44,007 bases of DNA, taken from the NCBI GenBank assembly GCA_039196715.1, contig JBCCUP010000034.1, forward strand, positions 1 to 44,007. Reading direction: 5' to 3'. Shown piece by piece: positions 325-44,007 of this stretch. The translations under genes and the position numbers were made by a program. The DNA is from Pseudomonadota bacterium (GTDB lineage: Bacteria; Pseudomonadota; Gammaproteobacteria; CALCKW01). Numbering within the stretch: position 1 is the stretch's first letter; the number at the start of each line of letters is the position of its first letter. A model generated the notes under the pieces. It had not been told where the DNA came from. It saw nothing but the letters and a program-made list of their open reading frames with translations, and ran no database searches.

Positions 325-1634
325 GCAGCCGCCTCCCGCAAGCGATCGAAGGCCGTGAAGTAGCCCGGGAAGGTCTTGGCCACGCAGCCCGGGTCGTTGA
401 TTGTGACCGACACGCCGGCACAGGCGACCAGCGAGAAACACATCGCGATGCGGTGGTCATCGTAGGTGTCGACTGCCACCCCGGGTGCTGGCGACGGACA
501 CGGCCAGACCCGCAACCAGTCCTCGCCCTGCTCGACCCGGGTGCCGAACTTGGCGAGCTCGGTTGCCATGGCGTGGATGCGGTCGGTCTCCTTGACCCGC
601 CAGCTGGCGATGTTGCGCAGCGTGCACGGGCCGTCGGCGAACATTGCAACCACCGCAAAAGTCATCGCGGCGTCGGGTATGTCGTTGAAATCCCCATCAA
701 AAGCGGGAATAGACCCGTTGCGCTGAACATGGATCTCATCGGCGTCGATGCGCACGTCGGCGCCGAACTCCGCCAGGTGACGGGCAAAGGCCACGTCGCC
801 CTGAAGCGAGGCGTTGCCGACACCCTGCACCGTCACGGGGCCCTGTCCGAGCAGGCCCGCCGCGAGGAAGTAACTTGCCGAGGAGGCATCACCCTCCACC
901 GCGCACCGGCCGGGCGCGGCGTAGCGCTGCCCGGCGGCGACCTGAAAGCCGTTGGCCGTTGGCGCGACGGTCACGCCGAAGCGGCGCATCAGCGCGACGG
1001 TCATGTCGACGTAGGGCTTGGAGATCAGCTCGCCGTCGATGTCGATCGTGAGCCCGTTCGGCAACAGCGGCGCCGCTTGCAGCAGGCCGGTGGTAAACTG
1101 GCTCGACACCGAGCCACGCACGGTCACCCGCGCCGCCTCGGTGTCACCGCGCGGCCCGATCGCGAGCGGTGGGTAACCCTCGGCACCGAGGTAGCGCACG
1201 TCGGCGCCGAGCGCGCGCACGGCGTCGACGAGGTCGCCGATCGGCCGCTCGTGCATCCGTTCAATGCCGCGGATCGCCACACTCTGGCCCGGGTCCGCTC
1301 CTTGCAGGGCGAGTGCCGCCACCAGGGTGCGCACCGCGGTGCCGGCGTTGCCGAGAAAGAGCTCGCCCTGCACGTGAGGCAGGCGCCCGCCGGTGCCCTC
1401 GACGGTGACCGTGCAGTCGTCGCCCGCGGTCCAGTTGACCCCGAGGGCACGCAGCGCCGCCAGCATGTGGCGCACGTCGTCGGAGTCGAGCAGCCCGGTC
1501 AGGGTCGTCTCACCCGCTGCCAGCGCGGCGAGCAGCAGCGCCCGGTTGGACAGGCTCTTGGAACCCGGCACCCGCACGGTGCCGGTCAGGCGCTGTACGG
1601 GCGCGAGCGTCAGGGTCGCGGGGTAGCCGCTCAT
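321..1634 (-). CDS. aroA: 3-phosphoshikimate 1-carboxyvinyltransferase (EPSP synthase)
   Basis: Condenses shikimate-3-phosphate and phosphoenolpyruvate to EPSP, the step before chorismate synthase. The 437-residue product has the family's normal length. Visible signatures are [17 protein letters not shown] near residues 23-39, [14 protein letters not shown] at 91-104, the [14 protein letters not shown] segment, [10 protein letters not shown], and WRVKETDRI in the C-terminal half. It belongs to class I by the LGNAGTA motif. One oddity is Thr103 where class I enzymes nearly always have Pro (E. coli P101 in LGNAGTAMRP); the glycine corresponding to E. coli G96 is kept. The ATG start overlaps the tyrA stop (ATGA) and the stop overlaps the cmk start, so three genes are read as one coupled unit. 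Confidence 0.96.
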
Positions 1635-2539
1635 TCGGATGGCTCCTGGGTGTCGTCAAGCTCGTTCAACCAGGCGTTGCGTGCGTCACGCGCCCGGGTG
1701 AAGAGCCCGGACAGGGCATCGCCGTCGCCCGCGGCCACGCGGTCGCGCAGCTGTGAGAGCGCGTCGACGTAGGCATCGAGCTCGCCGACGATCGCATCGC
1801 GGTTGCACAACGCGATGTCCCGCCACATGGTCGGGTCGGAGGACGCCACGCGGGTGAAGTCGCGGAATCCACCCGCGGCAAAGCGGAAAATGTCATCCCG
1901 GTCGGCACGCGCAGCGAGCATGTCCACCAGCGCGAAGGCGGCGTAGTGCGGCAGGTGGCTGGTGGCCGCAAGCAAGCCGTCATGGCGCTCGACCGGCAGC
2001 GACACCACCTCGGCACCGCAGGCCTGCCAGACGCGTTGCACGGCGGCAACGGCGCGGTCGTCACTCTCGGCCAGGGGCGTCAGGATCACGCGGCGCCCGG
2101 CGTAGAGGTCGGCCTCGCCGGCCTCGACGCCGCTGTGTTCACGGCCCGCGATCGGGTGGCCCGGCACGACGCGCCACAGGCTGTCGGCGAAGGCGTCGCG
2201 CGCCGCGTCGACGAAACTGGATTTCACGCTGCCGCCGTCGGTGATCACCGCGTCGGCCGGCGCCGCCGTTGCCAGGGCCTGCAGCAGCGGGGGCATGGCC
2301 AGCATGGGCGTCGTCAGCACGACCATCGCCGCGTCGCGCACCGCGTCGGTCAGCTCGGCCTCGACGCGGTCGACCACACCGAGTGTCAGTGCCGTCTCGA
2401 GCGTCTCCGAGCTGCGCGACGTGCCGACGATCTCGCCACGGTGGCCGGCCGCTTTCAACGCGAGCCCGAGGGACGCGCCAATCAGCCCGACGCCGACGAT
2501 CACCAGCGAGCGATCGTTCAGGTCCGGCACGCGGTTCAT
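1631..2539 (-). CDS. tyrA: Prephenate dehydrogenase
   Basis: Oxidatively decarboxylates prephenate to 4-hydroxyphenylpyruvate, the committed step to tyrosine. The 302-residue protein starts [21 protein letters not shown]: a Rossmann GxGxxG fold ([11 protein letters not shown]) follows a short leader, so this is a monofunctional TyrA with no chorismate mutase or EPSP synthase fusion. The catalytic-region motif [16 protein letters not shown] is intact, including the conserved histidine. The C-terminal helical dimerisation part ([32 protein letters not shown]) is complete. The start overlaps pheA's end by 4 nt and its stop overlaps the aroA start. A hisC paralogue, common between pheA and tyrA in pseudomonads, is absent here. 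Confidence 0.95.
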
Positions 2540-40522: not shown

Positions 40523-41506
40523 ATGCACGCCATCTTCTGCGACCAACACGGCCCGATCGACACCCTGCGCCTCGGTGAGGCCGACACACCCACACCGGGC
40601 GAACACGAGGCGCTGATCCGTGTGCGGGCGGCCGGGGTGAATTTTCCGGACGGCTTGCTGGTGCAGGGCCTGTACCAGGCCAAGCCGCCGTTGCCCTTCA
40701 TCCCGGGCATGGAGTTCTGCGGCGACGTTGTCGCCGTTGGCGACAGTGTGTCAACCGTCTCGGTCGGCCAGCGCGTGATGGGCAGCAGCGCGGGCTTCGG
40801 CGCCTTCGCCGAGAGCCTCTGCGCCGACGCGCGCGCGCTGGTGCCGGTGCCGGAGGCCATCCCCGACGCCGAGGCCGCGAACCTCCTGTGTGCCCACGGC
40901 ACAGCGCACCACGCCCTGAACCAGCGTGCGGCGCTCGCGTCGGGCGAACACGTGCTGGTGCTCGGTGCGGCGGGTGGTACCGGGCTTGCAGCTGTGCAGG
41001 TCGCCAAGGCGATGGGCGCGACCGTGATCGCAGCCGCCTCGACCGAGGACAAACTCGCGCTGGCACGCGAGAACGGCGCCGACCACACGGTCAACTACGC
41101 AACCGACGACCTCAAGACGGCCGTGCGCGCGCTCACCGACAACCGCGGTGTGGATGTGGTGTACGACCCGGTGGGTGGCGACGCCTTCGACACCAGCTGC
41201 CGCCTCATGGCACGCGGTGGACGGTTGCTGGTGATTGGCTTTGCCAGCGGGCGCATCCCGCAGTTTCCGGTGAACCTCGCGCTGGTCAAGGAGTTCAGCG
41301 TGGTCGGTGCGTTCTGGGGCAGCTTCGTGCGGCACGAGCCTGCGCTCGCCGCCGACAACTTCGCCGAACTGATCGGTTGGTACCTCCAAGGCGCCGTCAA
41401 GGTGCAGGTGGAGAAGACGTACCCGCTCGATCAGACAGTGGCCGCACTCGAGCACGTGATGGGCCGGCAGGTGCGCGGCAAAGTCGCGATCGTGCCGGGC
41501 GGCTGA
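40523..41506 (+). CDS. Quinone-oxidoreductase-like NADPH-dependent MDR enzyme
   Basis: 327 residues from ATG 40523 (MHAIFCDQHGPIDTLRLGEA); the frame upstream has no similarity. Zinc-free medium-chain dehydrogenase/reductase of the QOR type: GroES-like domain with VNFPDGLLVQGLYQAKPPLPFIPGMEFCGDVV, and a cofactor domain with the AAxGGxG motif LVLGAAGGTGLAAVQVAKAMGA, then GVDVVYDPVGGDAF and GRLLVIGFASGRIP. No zinc-binding cysteine set is visible. NADPH-dependent reduction of a quinone or enone is the family activity; the substrate is unknown. It is divergent from the DinB-like gene and convergent with the AEC transporter. Confidence 0.9.
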   Translation: MHAIFCDQHGPIDTLRLGEADTPTPGEHEALIRVRAAGVNFPDGLLVQGLYQAKPPLPFIPGMEFCGDVVAVGDSVSTVSVGQRVMGSSAGFGAFAESLCADARALVPVPEAIPDAEAANLLCAHGTAHHALNQRAALASGEHVLVLGAAGGTGLAAVQVAKAMGATVIAAASTEDKLALARENGADHTVNYATDDLKTAVRALTDNRGVDVVYDPVGGDAFDTSCRLMARGGRLLVIGFASGRIPQFPVNLALVKEFSVVGAFWGSFVRHEPALAADNFAELIGWYLQGAVKVQVEKTYPLDQTVAALEHVMGRQVRGKVAIVPGG

Positions 41507-41522
41507 GGTCGGCTTGGCGGGC

Positions 41523-42473
41523 TCAGACCATGCCCGCGAGGCGGAAGGCCATCAGGCCGAGGCTTGTAAACACGATCGACGCGACCGTCGTCACCACGAT
41601 GATGTTGGACGCGAGCGCGTCGTTGCCGCCAAAACTCCGCACCATGACGTAGCTCGCGCTGGCCGTGGGCGCCGACGCCATGAGAAAGACCAGCACGGTC
41701 TCCATCGCGTCGAGGTCGGCGAGCACCGCCAGCCCCACCACCAACGCCGGCGACAGAATGCCCTTGCCGAGCGACCCGACCACGGCGCTCCGCGGTGCGG
41801 CGTGCAGTGCGCCGAAGTTGAGCGCCGCCCCGGTGCAGAGCAACGCCAACGGCAGCACCATCTGGCCGAGGTAGTCGAGCGTGCTGATCACCGCCGTCGG
41901 CACAGGCGCGCCAGTCACCCGCACCACCCCGCCGGCGACGATCGCGAGTATCAACGGGTTCTTCAGCACGCCGAAGAGCGCAGAGCGCACGTCACTGCGG
42001 CCGTGCAGGTAGTGGTTCAACAACACCACGGCGATCACGTTATACAGCACCGTCACCACACCGAGGTAGACAACCACGGCTGCCAAGCCGGCATCACCGA
42101 AGGCGTTGAAACAGTAGGCGAGCCCGACCACGCCCATGTTGGCGCGGTAGGCGCCCTGCACCACCACGCCGCGGTCCGACACGTCCTCGACGACCACGCG
42201 CACGATCAGGATCATCAACCCGCACACCAGGGTCGTGCCGATCACGCCGACCCAGAGCATGTTGACGCTGCTGCCCGAGCCGCTCGGCGAGCTGACCATC
42301 TTGACGAACAGCATGGCGGGCATGGCGACGTTGAACACCACCCAGGTTGCCTGGCCGAGAAAGGCCTCATCGATGCGGCCAAACCGCCGCAGCCCGGTGC
42401 CAACCAGCATGATGAGCAGGATCGGCGCCGTGATGTTCACGGCAAAGAGGAGCAGTGGGAAAAGGTCAATCAC
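41523..42473 (-). CDS. AEC-family (auxin efflux carrier-like) transporter
   Basis: Integral membrane carrier of 316 residues, GTG start at 42471-42473. About ten hydrophobic helices in two halves; AEC features are VFNVAMPAMLFVKMV near the N-terminus, QGAYRANMGVVGLAY (the family's conserved N-x-G region), LKNPLILAIVAGGVV, and LALLCTGAALNFG leading into the second half, then MASAPTASASYVMVRSFGG near the end. Bacterial relatives move malonate, malate or other organic acids, but nothing nearby fixes the substrate. It is convergent with the QOR-like gene and divergent from the EamA transporter with 153 bp between their starts. Confidence 0.9.
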   Translation of the reverse strand: MIDLFPLLLFAVNITAPILLIMLVGTGLRRFGRIDEAFLGQATWVVFNVAMPAMLFVKMVSSPSGSGSSVNMLWVGVIGTTLVCGLMILIVRVVVEDVSDRGVVVQGAYRANMGVVGLAYCFNAFGDAGLAAVVVYLGVVTVLYNVIAVVLLNHYLHGRSDVRSALFGVLKNPLILAIVAGGVVRVTGAPVPTAVISTLDYLGQMVLPLALLCTGAALNFGALHAAPRSAVVGSLGKGILSPALVVGLAVLADLDAMETVLVFLMASAPTASASYVMVRSFGGNDALASNIIVVTTVASIVFTSLGLMAFRLAGMV

Positions 42474-42626: not shown

Positions 42627-43520
42627 ATGCACTCACCTGCTCTGCTGCTTGTTGTCACCGGCTTTTTTCTCGGCCTGACGTTTCCGCTCGGCAAGCTCGC
42701 GACCGCGGCGTCGGTACCCCCACTTGTCTGGGCCTGCTGGCTGTCCGGCGGCAGCGCGCTGTGTCTTGTCGCGATCCGCGGTTTTGCGCGCAAGCGGGTG
42801 CGTGTGCAGCCACCGTTCGCTCGCTATTACCTGCTCAGTGCGGTTGTGTCACTTGTGCTGCCAAACACGCTGATCTTCATCGTGGTCGACAAACTGGGAG
42901 CAGGCTTCACCAGCATCTTTTTCACCCTCTCACCGATTTTCACCTTGATCCTGTCCTCGATCGTCCAGGTCAGGGTGCCCAATGCCCTGGGCATCGCCGG
43001 TGTGATCACCGGCTTTCTCGGCGCCATCGTGGTGGCGTGGACGCGGGGTGAAGCTGCGCAGCCCGCGGCCTGGCTGTGGGTGTTTGCCGGTCTGTGCATC
43101 CCGGTGTCGCTAGCAGTTGGCAACGTCTACCGCACCGTCGCCTGGCCGGCCGGCGGTGAGCCACTCGAGCTCGCTGCCGGCAGTAACGCAGCGGCCGCCG
43201 TGATGCTGGTGCTCGCGGCAGTGACCGTCGACGGTCTCGGCGCATTCACACGGGTGTTCGATCTGCCCTGGCTCGCACTTGCCCAGGTTGCCGCGTCCAC
43301 GGCGATGTTCACAACCTTTTTCCGTCTGCAGCTCGCCGGCGGACCAACCTACCTCAGCCAGATCGGCTACGTCGCCGCGGCGGTCGCGTTGCTGATCGGC
43401 ACCTTCGTGCTCGGCGAACGCTACGCGCCGCTCACCTGGCTCGGCGCCGGCATCATCTTCACCGGTGTGGGGTTCAGCATTGCGTCAACGCGCACCGTGG
43501 CTGAGGACACCCCCCGGTAA
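42627..43520 (+). CDS. EamA/DMT-superfamily transporter
   Basis: 297 residues from ATG 42627 (MHSPALLLVVTGFFLGLTFP); an in-frame TTG at 42600 adds nine residues without family similarity. Ten predicted membrane helices in two EamA repeats: repeat one has FPLGKLATAASVPPLVWACWL and LGAGFTSIFFTLSPIFTLILS, and repeat two ends GPTYLSQIGYVAAAVALLIGTFVLGERYAPLTWLGAGIIFTGVGF. The GE.....W.G..li..G pattern is typical of the second repeat. Family members export amino acids or metabolites, or import nucleotide sugars; specificity here is unknown. It is the last gene before the repeat region. Confidence 0.9.
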   Translation: MHSPALLLVVTGFFLGLTFPLGKLATAASVPPLVWACWLSGGSALCLVAIRGFARKRVRVQPPFARYYLLSAVVSLVLPNTLIFIVVDKLGAGFTSIFFTLSPIFTLILSSIVQVRVPNALGIAGVITGFLGAIVVAWTRGEAAQPAAWLWVFAGLCIPVSLAVGNVYRTVAWPAGGEPLELAAGSNAAAAVMLVLAAVTVDGLGAFTRVFDLPWLALAQVAASTAMFTTFFRLQLAGGPTYLSQIGYVAAAVALLIGTFVLGERYAPLTWLGAGIIFTGVGFSIASTRTVAEDTPR

Positions 43521-43655: not shown

Positions 43656-44007
43656 CAGCCTGCGTTGCCGGTTGATCGGAGCCGGGGGGTTCTGGAGGTA
43701 GCTTGATTGGACTTCGAGATTGTGAGGACCCGGAAGGATGGATTCGCAAACGCTAAGGCGTTTGCTCACCCTTCGGGCGGCCTGCGGCCGTCTCAACTGG
43801 CGTTGCCAGTTGATCGAACCTGAGGAGGTTCTGGACCGACCGGGTGTGCCATTGGAAAAGCCACCCGTTGGGTGGCGGGTCGTCTTGTCTGGTGCACCCT
43901 CTGCCCGGAAGAATAGATTTGCAAACGCTAGGGCGTTTGCTCACCCTGCGGGCGGCCTTTGGCCGTCTCAACTGGCGTTGCCAGTTGATCGAACCTGAGG
44001 AGGTTCG
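43656..44007. repeat. Hairpin-rich tandem repeat, period 175 bp, continuing off the right edge
   Basis: Two copies of a block of about 95 bp occur at 43741-43837 and 43916-44007 (offset exactly 175 bp, about five differences). A diverged partial copy lies at about 43661-43700. Each block holds four successive perfect hairpins. In the first copy they are GCAAACGC/GCGTTTGC (43746-43765), CGGCC/GGCCG (43778-43790), CAACTGGC/GCCAGTTG (43794-43812) and GAACCT/AGGTTC (43816-43831). The spacer adds CCACCC/GGGTGG (43861-43875). Differences between copies fall in loops or between hairpins, while stems are unchanged. No protein-coding gene is supported here. It may be a REP/MITE-like element, a structured RNA or an attachment-type array. 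Confidence 0.8.

Follow-up and report, generated by a model that had tools for sequence, protein, structure and literature searches.

The window, that is, the whole stretch of DNA analyzed here, is an entire contig of 44,007 bases (G000:C34), and its final 280 bases are occupied by an array of hairpin-rich repeats. The neighbors of the array are a membrane-transport gene (41523-42473, minus strand) and an EamA-type transporter gene (42630-43520). A block of 103 nt occurs in two copies, at 43729-43831 and at 43904-44006, the latter truncated by the contig end; both lie on the minus strand, which is the tRNA strand, are 93% identical, and are spaced by 175 bp. An earlier note on this DNA had described two near-identical blocks of a tandem 175-bp repeat. 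That note also supposed that the region continues past the window. The sequence does stop inside the array, but the window is the whole contig, and what ends it is an assembly break. A diverged third block, likewise proposed in the note, did not withstand comparison: 43656-43735 holds a remnant of the B/A hairpin end only (43664-43696, minus strand, distal), in which 43685-43696 matches at a spacing of 139, and its fold lacks the series of four hairpins. An ORF at 43738-43998 overlaps the copies and is regarded as incidental.

Each copy carries five hairpins, all on the minus strand. Hairpin E (43746-43765 in copy 1, 43921-43940 in copy 2) has 8 bp and the loops CTTA and CCTA, respectively, and 5 of its 8 pairs exhibit two-sided changes. 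Hairpin D (43769-43777 and 43944-43952), a short CCC GAA GGG element of 3 pairs between E and C, is near-invariant across the family, both in the alignment of modules from the same genus and in that of class-wide cores. Hairpin C (43776-43792 and 43951-43967) has 7 bp and the loops GCA and AAA, whereas hairpin B (43793-43813 and 43968-43988) has 9 bp and the loop AAC; it is in the latter loop that many relatives carry A(N)GGA. Hairpin A (43816-43831 and 43991-44006; GAACCT/AGGTTC) duplicates half of a tRNA T-arm (GGTTCGA), as judged by comparison with the tRNA-Arg in locus L056. The description of four perfect hairpins per block holds insofar as E, C, B and A are present in both copies, but C of copy 1 contains one G-T pair, and the short D has to be added. 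The accompanying observation, that the stems are unchanged and that changes fall mainly in loops, is correct: the 7 differences between the copies spare all 64 stem bases (hypergeometric p = 0.0008), 4 being located in the loops of E, D and C and 3 in the 5' linker.

The sequence ATCCTTCCGGG at 43729-43739 (minus strand) equals, by comparison with L056, the 3' strand of the T-stem and acceptor of the syntenic tRNA-Arg(acg) in the sister genome G001 (window, CCCGGAAGGAT; L056, CCCGGAAGGATTCGAACC). At the loci of the genus, the order on the tRNA strand is a T-arm half ending in GGTTCGA, then hairpins B, C, D and E, then GAATC, and finally the T-stem/acceptor 3' strand. The hairpin cluster occupies the place at which a T-loop would be expected. 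In the spacer between the copies, we noted by eye a terminator-like hairpin on the tRNA strand (43856-43876, minus; GCCACCC-AAC-GGGTGGC followed by TTTT). The terminator scan did not report this hairpin, the T-run rule being unmet, and listed only an overlapping site on the plus strand.

A tRNA search of the 44,007-base window found none. However, positions 41091-42344 align at 70.6% with G001:C132, in which this same repeat comes next, in unchanged orientation, and after it an intact minus-strand tRNA-Arg(acg). This synteny leads us to expect a tRNA-Arg just past base 44007. The match between the array and the syntenic tRNA-Arg of G001 extends over 11 bp; the upstream tRNA of the array's own genome would lie beyond the contig end. 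The own assembly (completeness 96%, with breaks at several such arrays) contains no tRNA whose end matches the array, and a pattern search of it for the expected tRNA end returned a sole match, a one-mismatch site inside another tRNA. Contig G000:C72, which starts 82 bp before a tRNA-Arg(acg), was considered as the partner and rejected because its T-arm differs (CCCGGAGAGATTCGAACTC). We consider it likely that the feature is a tandem array of tRNA-linked repeats (TLRs) and that the tRNA-Arg gene which it trails fell into the gap where the contig stops. Arrays of this kind often stand at contig ends (G000:C34, C21, C30 and C101; G001:C5; G002:C317); short-read assemblies evidently break there, and copy numbers are consequently underestimated.

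The identity of the array as a TLR is well supported by its homologous hairpin core. Two covariance models were used, R1 being derived from modules of the own genus only and R2 from 19 class-wide cores that include neither the own genus nor Enterobacteria. The core of copy 1 (43739-43819) is matched by R1 and by R2 (E 8.7e-18), and that of copy 2 (43914-43994) by R2 (E 1.6e-16). R2 also recovers all four repeats at E. coli tyrT (E 1.8e-7 to 7.6e-6) and the E. coli rrnB repeat in the stretch after the 5S gene (55.6 bits, E 1.3e-15); R1 detects these as well, all four at tyrT (E 3e-6 to 3e-4 in 2.2 kb) and the one at rrnB (E 1.6e-8). Three weak R2 sites are present in the E. coli argQ-argZ-argY-argV stretch (E 0.001-0.02), and the stretches with glyVXY and leuQPV gave no R2 match. 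The link from the window to E. coli runs via the models and intermediate loci. Direct comparison of the window with E. coli genomes by blastn yielded no match, the window against Rfam as a whole nothing of weight, and the window against Rfam RtT (RF00391) no match up to E = 10. The gathering threshold of RtT is 45 bits, and the best relative, a class locus that also matches R1 (L120), attains 40.5 bits (E 1.4e-6).

TLRs have been known since 1978, and a function is known only for the three rRNA-linked ones (PMC8144298); earlier TLR work (Egan and Landy 1978; Rudd 1999) is cited through that paper. According to the same source, their hallmark is a stretch of 18-19 bp identical to the upstream tRNA, and members in E. 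coli are transcribed by read-through; that rtT at tyrT is a TLR follows from it also (PMC8144298). In Salmonella, a 175-bp VNTR is located at the rtT RNA (PMC2658671). Like the window array, the E. coli tyrT rtT consists of tandem units of ~175-180 bp (spacing of 178 versus 175) that are found by the same models and that run from a hairpin A copied from the T-arm through B-C-D-E to a tRNA 3' end; at tyrT, the units lie downstream of a tRNA. The two differ in that the window array is tied by synteny to tRNA-Arg and rtT to tRNA-Tyr; further, the window has longer, perfect B and E stems and the terminator-like spacer hairpin, and it falls below detection by the Rfam RtT model. The E. coli rRNA-operon TLRs RrA, RrB and RrF possess the same B-C-D-E core, but the rrnB copy has GGA in its B and E loops, whereas the window copies have none and, as far as synteny tells, are not rRNA-linked. 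A resemblance also exists to the Aggregatibacter sRNA AaHKsRNA22 (RF02902), the Rfam model of which can be matched to each hairpin in turn at the class locus L110; the score is below gathering (39.8 bits) in every case, at 35.8 bits for L110 and a weak 28.3 bits for L007 of the own genus.

Other known systems were set aside. The palindrome downstream of Methanopyrus tRNAs (PMC5217627) is single and short and is separated from the tRNA by ~10 bp. By its architecture, the array fits neither an integron nor a CRISPR array; for integron attC sites, the spacers of ~70 bp, which accompany tRNA ends in the units, are too short for cassettes. The recombination array suggested in the earlier note gained no support from the analyses made here. 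The excerpted Alcanivorax sRNA paper (PMC9788540) shows no link to these repeats, and searches of open-licence papers for tRNA-end palindromes turned up nothing relevant.

The earlier note had reasoned that uniqueness to this locus would weaken any functional or mobile interpretation; the repeat is anything but unique. A DNA search gave matches in 3 of the 4 genomes of the genus, own genome counted, and R1 in all 4, with 20 matches in the own genome (E up to 0.1). Beyond the genus, the R2 core is found at 1e-6 in 163 of 369 class genomes, representing 124 of 271 genera; 19 training genomes within that sample match by construction, and 144 of 350 remain without them. At 1e-5, R1 matches 68 of 274 class genomes. 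In a sample of the phylum, 53 of 200 genomes match R2, 41 of them (G381 being one) outside the class. Matches per genome are lower bounds in the R1 sample and in the R2 class and phylum samples, reaching at least 23 in the latter. A pattern scan of named genomes produced at least 117 stretches, 80 of which became loci; among the matches listed are Microbulbifer, Lysobacter, Luteimonas, Thioalkalivibrio, Woeseiaceae and Mariprofundus, as well as single bins labelled Lentisphaera, Klebsiella and Desulfobulbaceae, which may be misbinned. The range of the family very probably includes the Zetaproteobacteria. With this distribution in the sampled class genomes, the TLR family is no curiosity of E. 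coli. Our literature search covered open-licence papers, and we do not claim to be the first to report either the wide spread or the loop pattern described below.

Linkage to tRNA genes is common in the family, but not general. In the class sample, a tRNA lies on the same strand within 900 nt in 24 of 28 loci, and 23 of 37 modules end in the 3' sequence of that tRNA (at least 10/12), versus 4 with random tRNAs. Among the pattern matches listed, 29 of 73 loci have a tRNA within that distance, and the 3'-end test is passed by 13 of 98 modules (3 in the control); for the own genus, the figure is 8 of 38 modules (1 in the control). Arrays of the genus adjoin genes for tRNA-Arg(acg), tRNA-Arg(ccg), tRNA-Ser(tga), tRNA-Ser(gga) and tRNA-Ser(gct). 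Copies that lack such linkage are scattered, some of them being identical, and have mosaic palindromic surroundings. In the fetched flanks of L268-L287 (G376) and L288-L294 (G426), many dispersed, near-identical cores lie in mosaic palindromic repeats away from tRNAs.

In the covariance check that the earlier note had proposed, the stems covary strongly. Alignment A1 comprises 18 modules of the own genus, with exact duplicates and 7 hits whose end or stem was not found by the parser left out. In it, 93.9% of cells pair, 16 of 25 pairs have two-sided changes, and 101 cells are two-sided versus 3 one-sided. The covariation score is 0.55 versus 0.15 when shuffled, with 0 of 500 shuffles reaching 0.55, under limited control for relatedness; sliding the partner by 1-3 columns destroys the covariation. 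For the class, one module each was taken from 20 of 28 loci (A4) and then from 19 (A5, the basis of R2), the divergent, incomplete or untypical L105, L109, L116, L119, L121, L125, L128 and L131, and subsequently L132, being left out by hand. In A5, 92.1% of cells pair, 16 of 23 pairs have two-sided changes, and 79 cells are two-sided versus 2 one-sided; the score is 0.50 versus 0.14 shuffled, and none of 500 shuffles is as high, again with limited control for relatedness. Of the three natures that the note had offered, a repeated structured RNA is the best: the array belongs to the TLR family, its E. coli members are transcribed (PMC8144298), and the covariation of the stems is strong.

The same excess of two-sided over one-sided changes in A1 and A5 is also what favors a different account, namely that the array is a relic, in which a tRNA 3' end was tandemly duplicated and template switching corrects the palindromes and so preserves their perfect arms; in this lineage, such a relic would have no function today. 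The loss of GGA from the loops in the genus, where decayed copies and pseudo-tRNAs are present, agrees with it. However, hairpin D and the CTCACCCTNCGGGC box are near-invariant, and the architecture has been kept in the 124 genera noted above; we therefore view this account as possible but unlikely.

The chief result against a pure RNA reading concerns the mismatches. Among 231 distinct B and E hairpins, non-Watson-Crick pairs are G-U in 31 cases and A-C in 27, as counted by a stem finder that treats G-U and A-C equally; the T and acceptor stems of tRNAs in the retrieved loci, whose pairs lie at fixed positions, contain 52 G-U and 0 A-C of 1296. Selection for RNA pairing alone would favor G-U, and the near-parity thus points in part to an effect at the DNA level. 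The perfection of the palindromes is probably due in part to such an effect, whether template switching or selection on DNA hairpins.

That G-U and A-C mismatches are about equally rare is likewise consistent with a REP/MITE-like DNA element, i.e., a non-autonomous mobile or DNA-structural repeat that is recognized as single-stranded hairpins and has settled by chance in tRNA ends. REP/BIMEs with RAYT transposases are palindromic, multi-copy and mosaic, as is this family, and a Y1 transposase is encoded in many of the genomes. REP elements carry a conserved tag of the GTAG/GGAG type. Tandem core dimers of 72-76 bp also accord with such an element, as do the near-identical copies that G376, G426 and Microbulbifer carry scattered at a distance from tRNAs. 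The Y1 transposase (PF01797) is present in all 4 genomes of the genus and co-occurs with the core (both in 97 genomes, core only in 66, transposase only in 88, neither in 118; odds ratio 2.0, p = 0.0016, ignoring genome size and kinship). This link is weak, and the transposase is not required here: 66 of the 163 core-bearing genomes have no PF01797 match at 1e-10. By eye, the flanks of the G376 copies are mosaic, with no obvious common boundary or target duplication. Further, the family's linkage to tRNA ends and the strand-specific loops are left unexplained. The REP/MITE-like nature suggested in the earlier note retains some plausibility from the dispersed copies off tRNAs elsewhere and from mismatches that are not G-U-biased, but we judge it unlikely.

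If the array is instead a TLR array behind a tRNA-Arg, as we prefer, its units could have arisen by unequal exchange between repeated tRNA 3' ends. By analogy with E. coli, read-through from the tRNA promoter would transcribe the array at a low level, and cutting of the transcript at the duplicated tRNA ends would then release small structured RNAs, as has been proposed for E. coli RrB.

The loops of hairpins B and E hint at what such RNAs might do in relatives. The fuller form of the CsrA motif is A(N)GGA. Outside the own genus, this motif occurs on the tRNA strand in 85 of 135 B loops and 88 of 126 E loops, and its reverse complement in 1 of 135 and 0 of 126, respectively; in the other hairpins of the same loci, GGA is found in 36 of 409. 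When the pattern scan was run with the loop left free, 74 of 86 B loops among the matches listed contained GGA. The two loops vary together: in the class sample, both have GGA in 21 modules, neither in 12, and only one in 1 + 1 (2 modules set aside; kinship ignored), and among the pattern matches listed the counts are 65, 13 and 5 + 8 (7 set aside; kinship ignored). The distance from GGA to GGA is 41-66 nt, with a median of 49. A joint pattern of this kind would be expected under selection by a dimeric RNA binder that uses two sites. At E. coli rrnB, these two loops contain GGGA and AGGA. GGA in a hairpin loop is the motif of CsrA, and RrB, the family member for which CsrA binding is on record, binds CsrA in vitro and also Hfq; a prediction program gave the 19 tRNA-linked E. 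coli TLRs a CsrA-binding score of <0.01 (PMC8144298).

The two A(N)GGA sites of many relatives would fit titration of CsrA, and for these GGA-bearing members, among them the Thiohalophilus unit in L139, titration may be regarded as a live hypothesis. Two loops with A(N)GGA are frequent in tRNA-linked members outside Enterobacterales, which leads to a testable proposal for this family, the coupling of CsrA titration to tRNA transcription. A broader form can be put forward tentatively, as plausible but somewhat short of probable. In it, the B-C-D-E core would be a CsrA-binding RNA module that is placed behind tRNA and rRNA genes and whose age and range far exceed those of Enterobacterales. The titrating RNA would scale with stable-RNA transcription, so that CsrA activity would be linked with growth rate throughout Gammaproteobacteria and Zetaproteobacteria. 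Gain and loss of GGA would affect both loops together, and the lineage of the window and E. coli tyrT would be GGA-less derivatives.

For the window itself, CsrA titration is unsupported. Its genome encodes CsrA, and relatives have A(N)GGA in both loops, two facts in favor of an active CsrA sponge in the source organism. However, the window loops (AAC and CTTA/CCTA) contain no GGA, let alone the several GGA loops of the CsrB/RsmZ type, and among 35 modules of the own genus, none has GGA in both loops and 4 have it in one. A sponge is accordingly rejected for the window copies, and its chances in the organism are very slim. The own genus having lost the GGA loops, the array is probably a form without a CsrA function, like E. 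coli rtT, and the window copy taken alone is an ordinary GGA-less member of the TLR family.

Several arrays of the genus have peculiarities of their own. At L061 (183-400, G002:C317), a tRNA-Arg(ccg)-like copy has, by eye, an insertion in its D-loop and the hairpin core in its T-loop. At L008 (890-1060, G000:C5), a decayed copy of tRNA-Ser(gct) with an altered anticodon arm is joined to the hairpin core, adjoining the intact tRNA-Ser(gct) and a csrA gene (1500-1709, minus strand). Hairpin C of the tRNA-Ser arrays (e.g., L059 and L060), read by eye on the tRNA strand, contains tandem G-A mismatches that are conserved (GGAGC...GCGAC); a tandem GA motif has been reported for RtT RNA (PMC7657543). 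At L059 (690-1180, G001:C19), a single unit contains tandem repeats of the B-C-D-E core with a period of 74-76 bp, and similar core dimers are present in G375, G387, G433 and G465.
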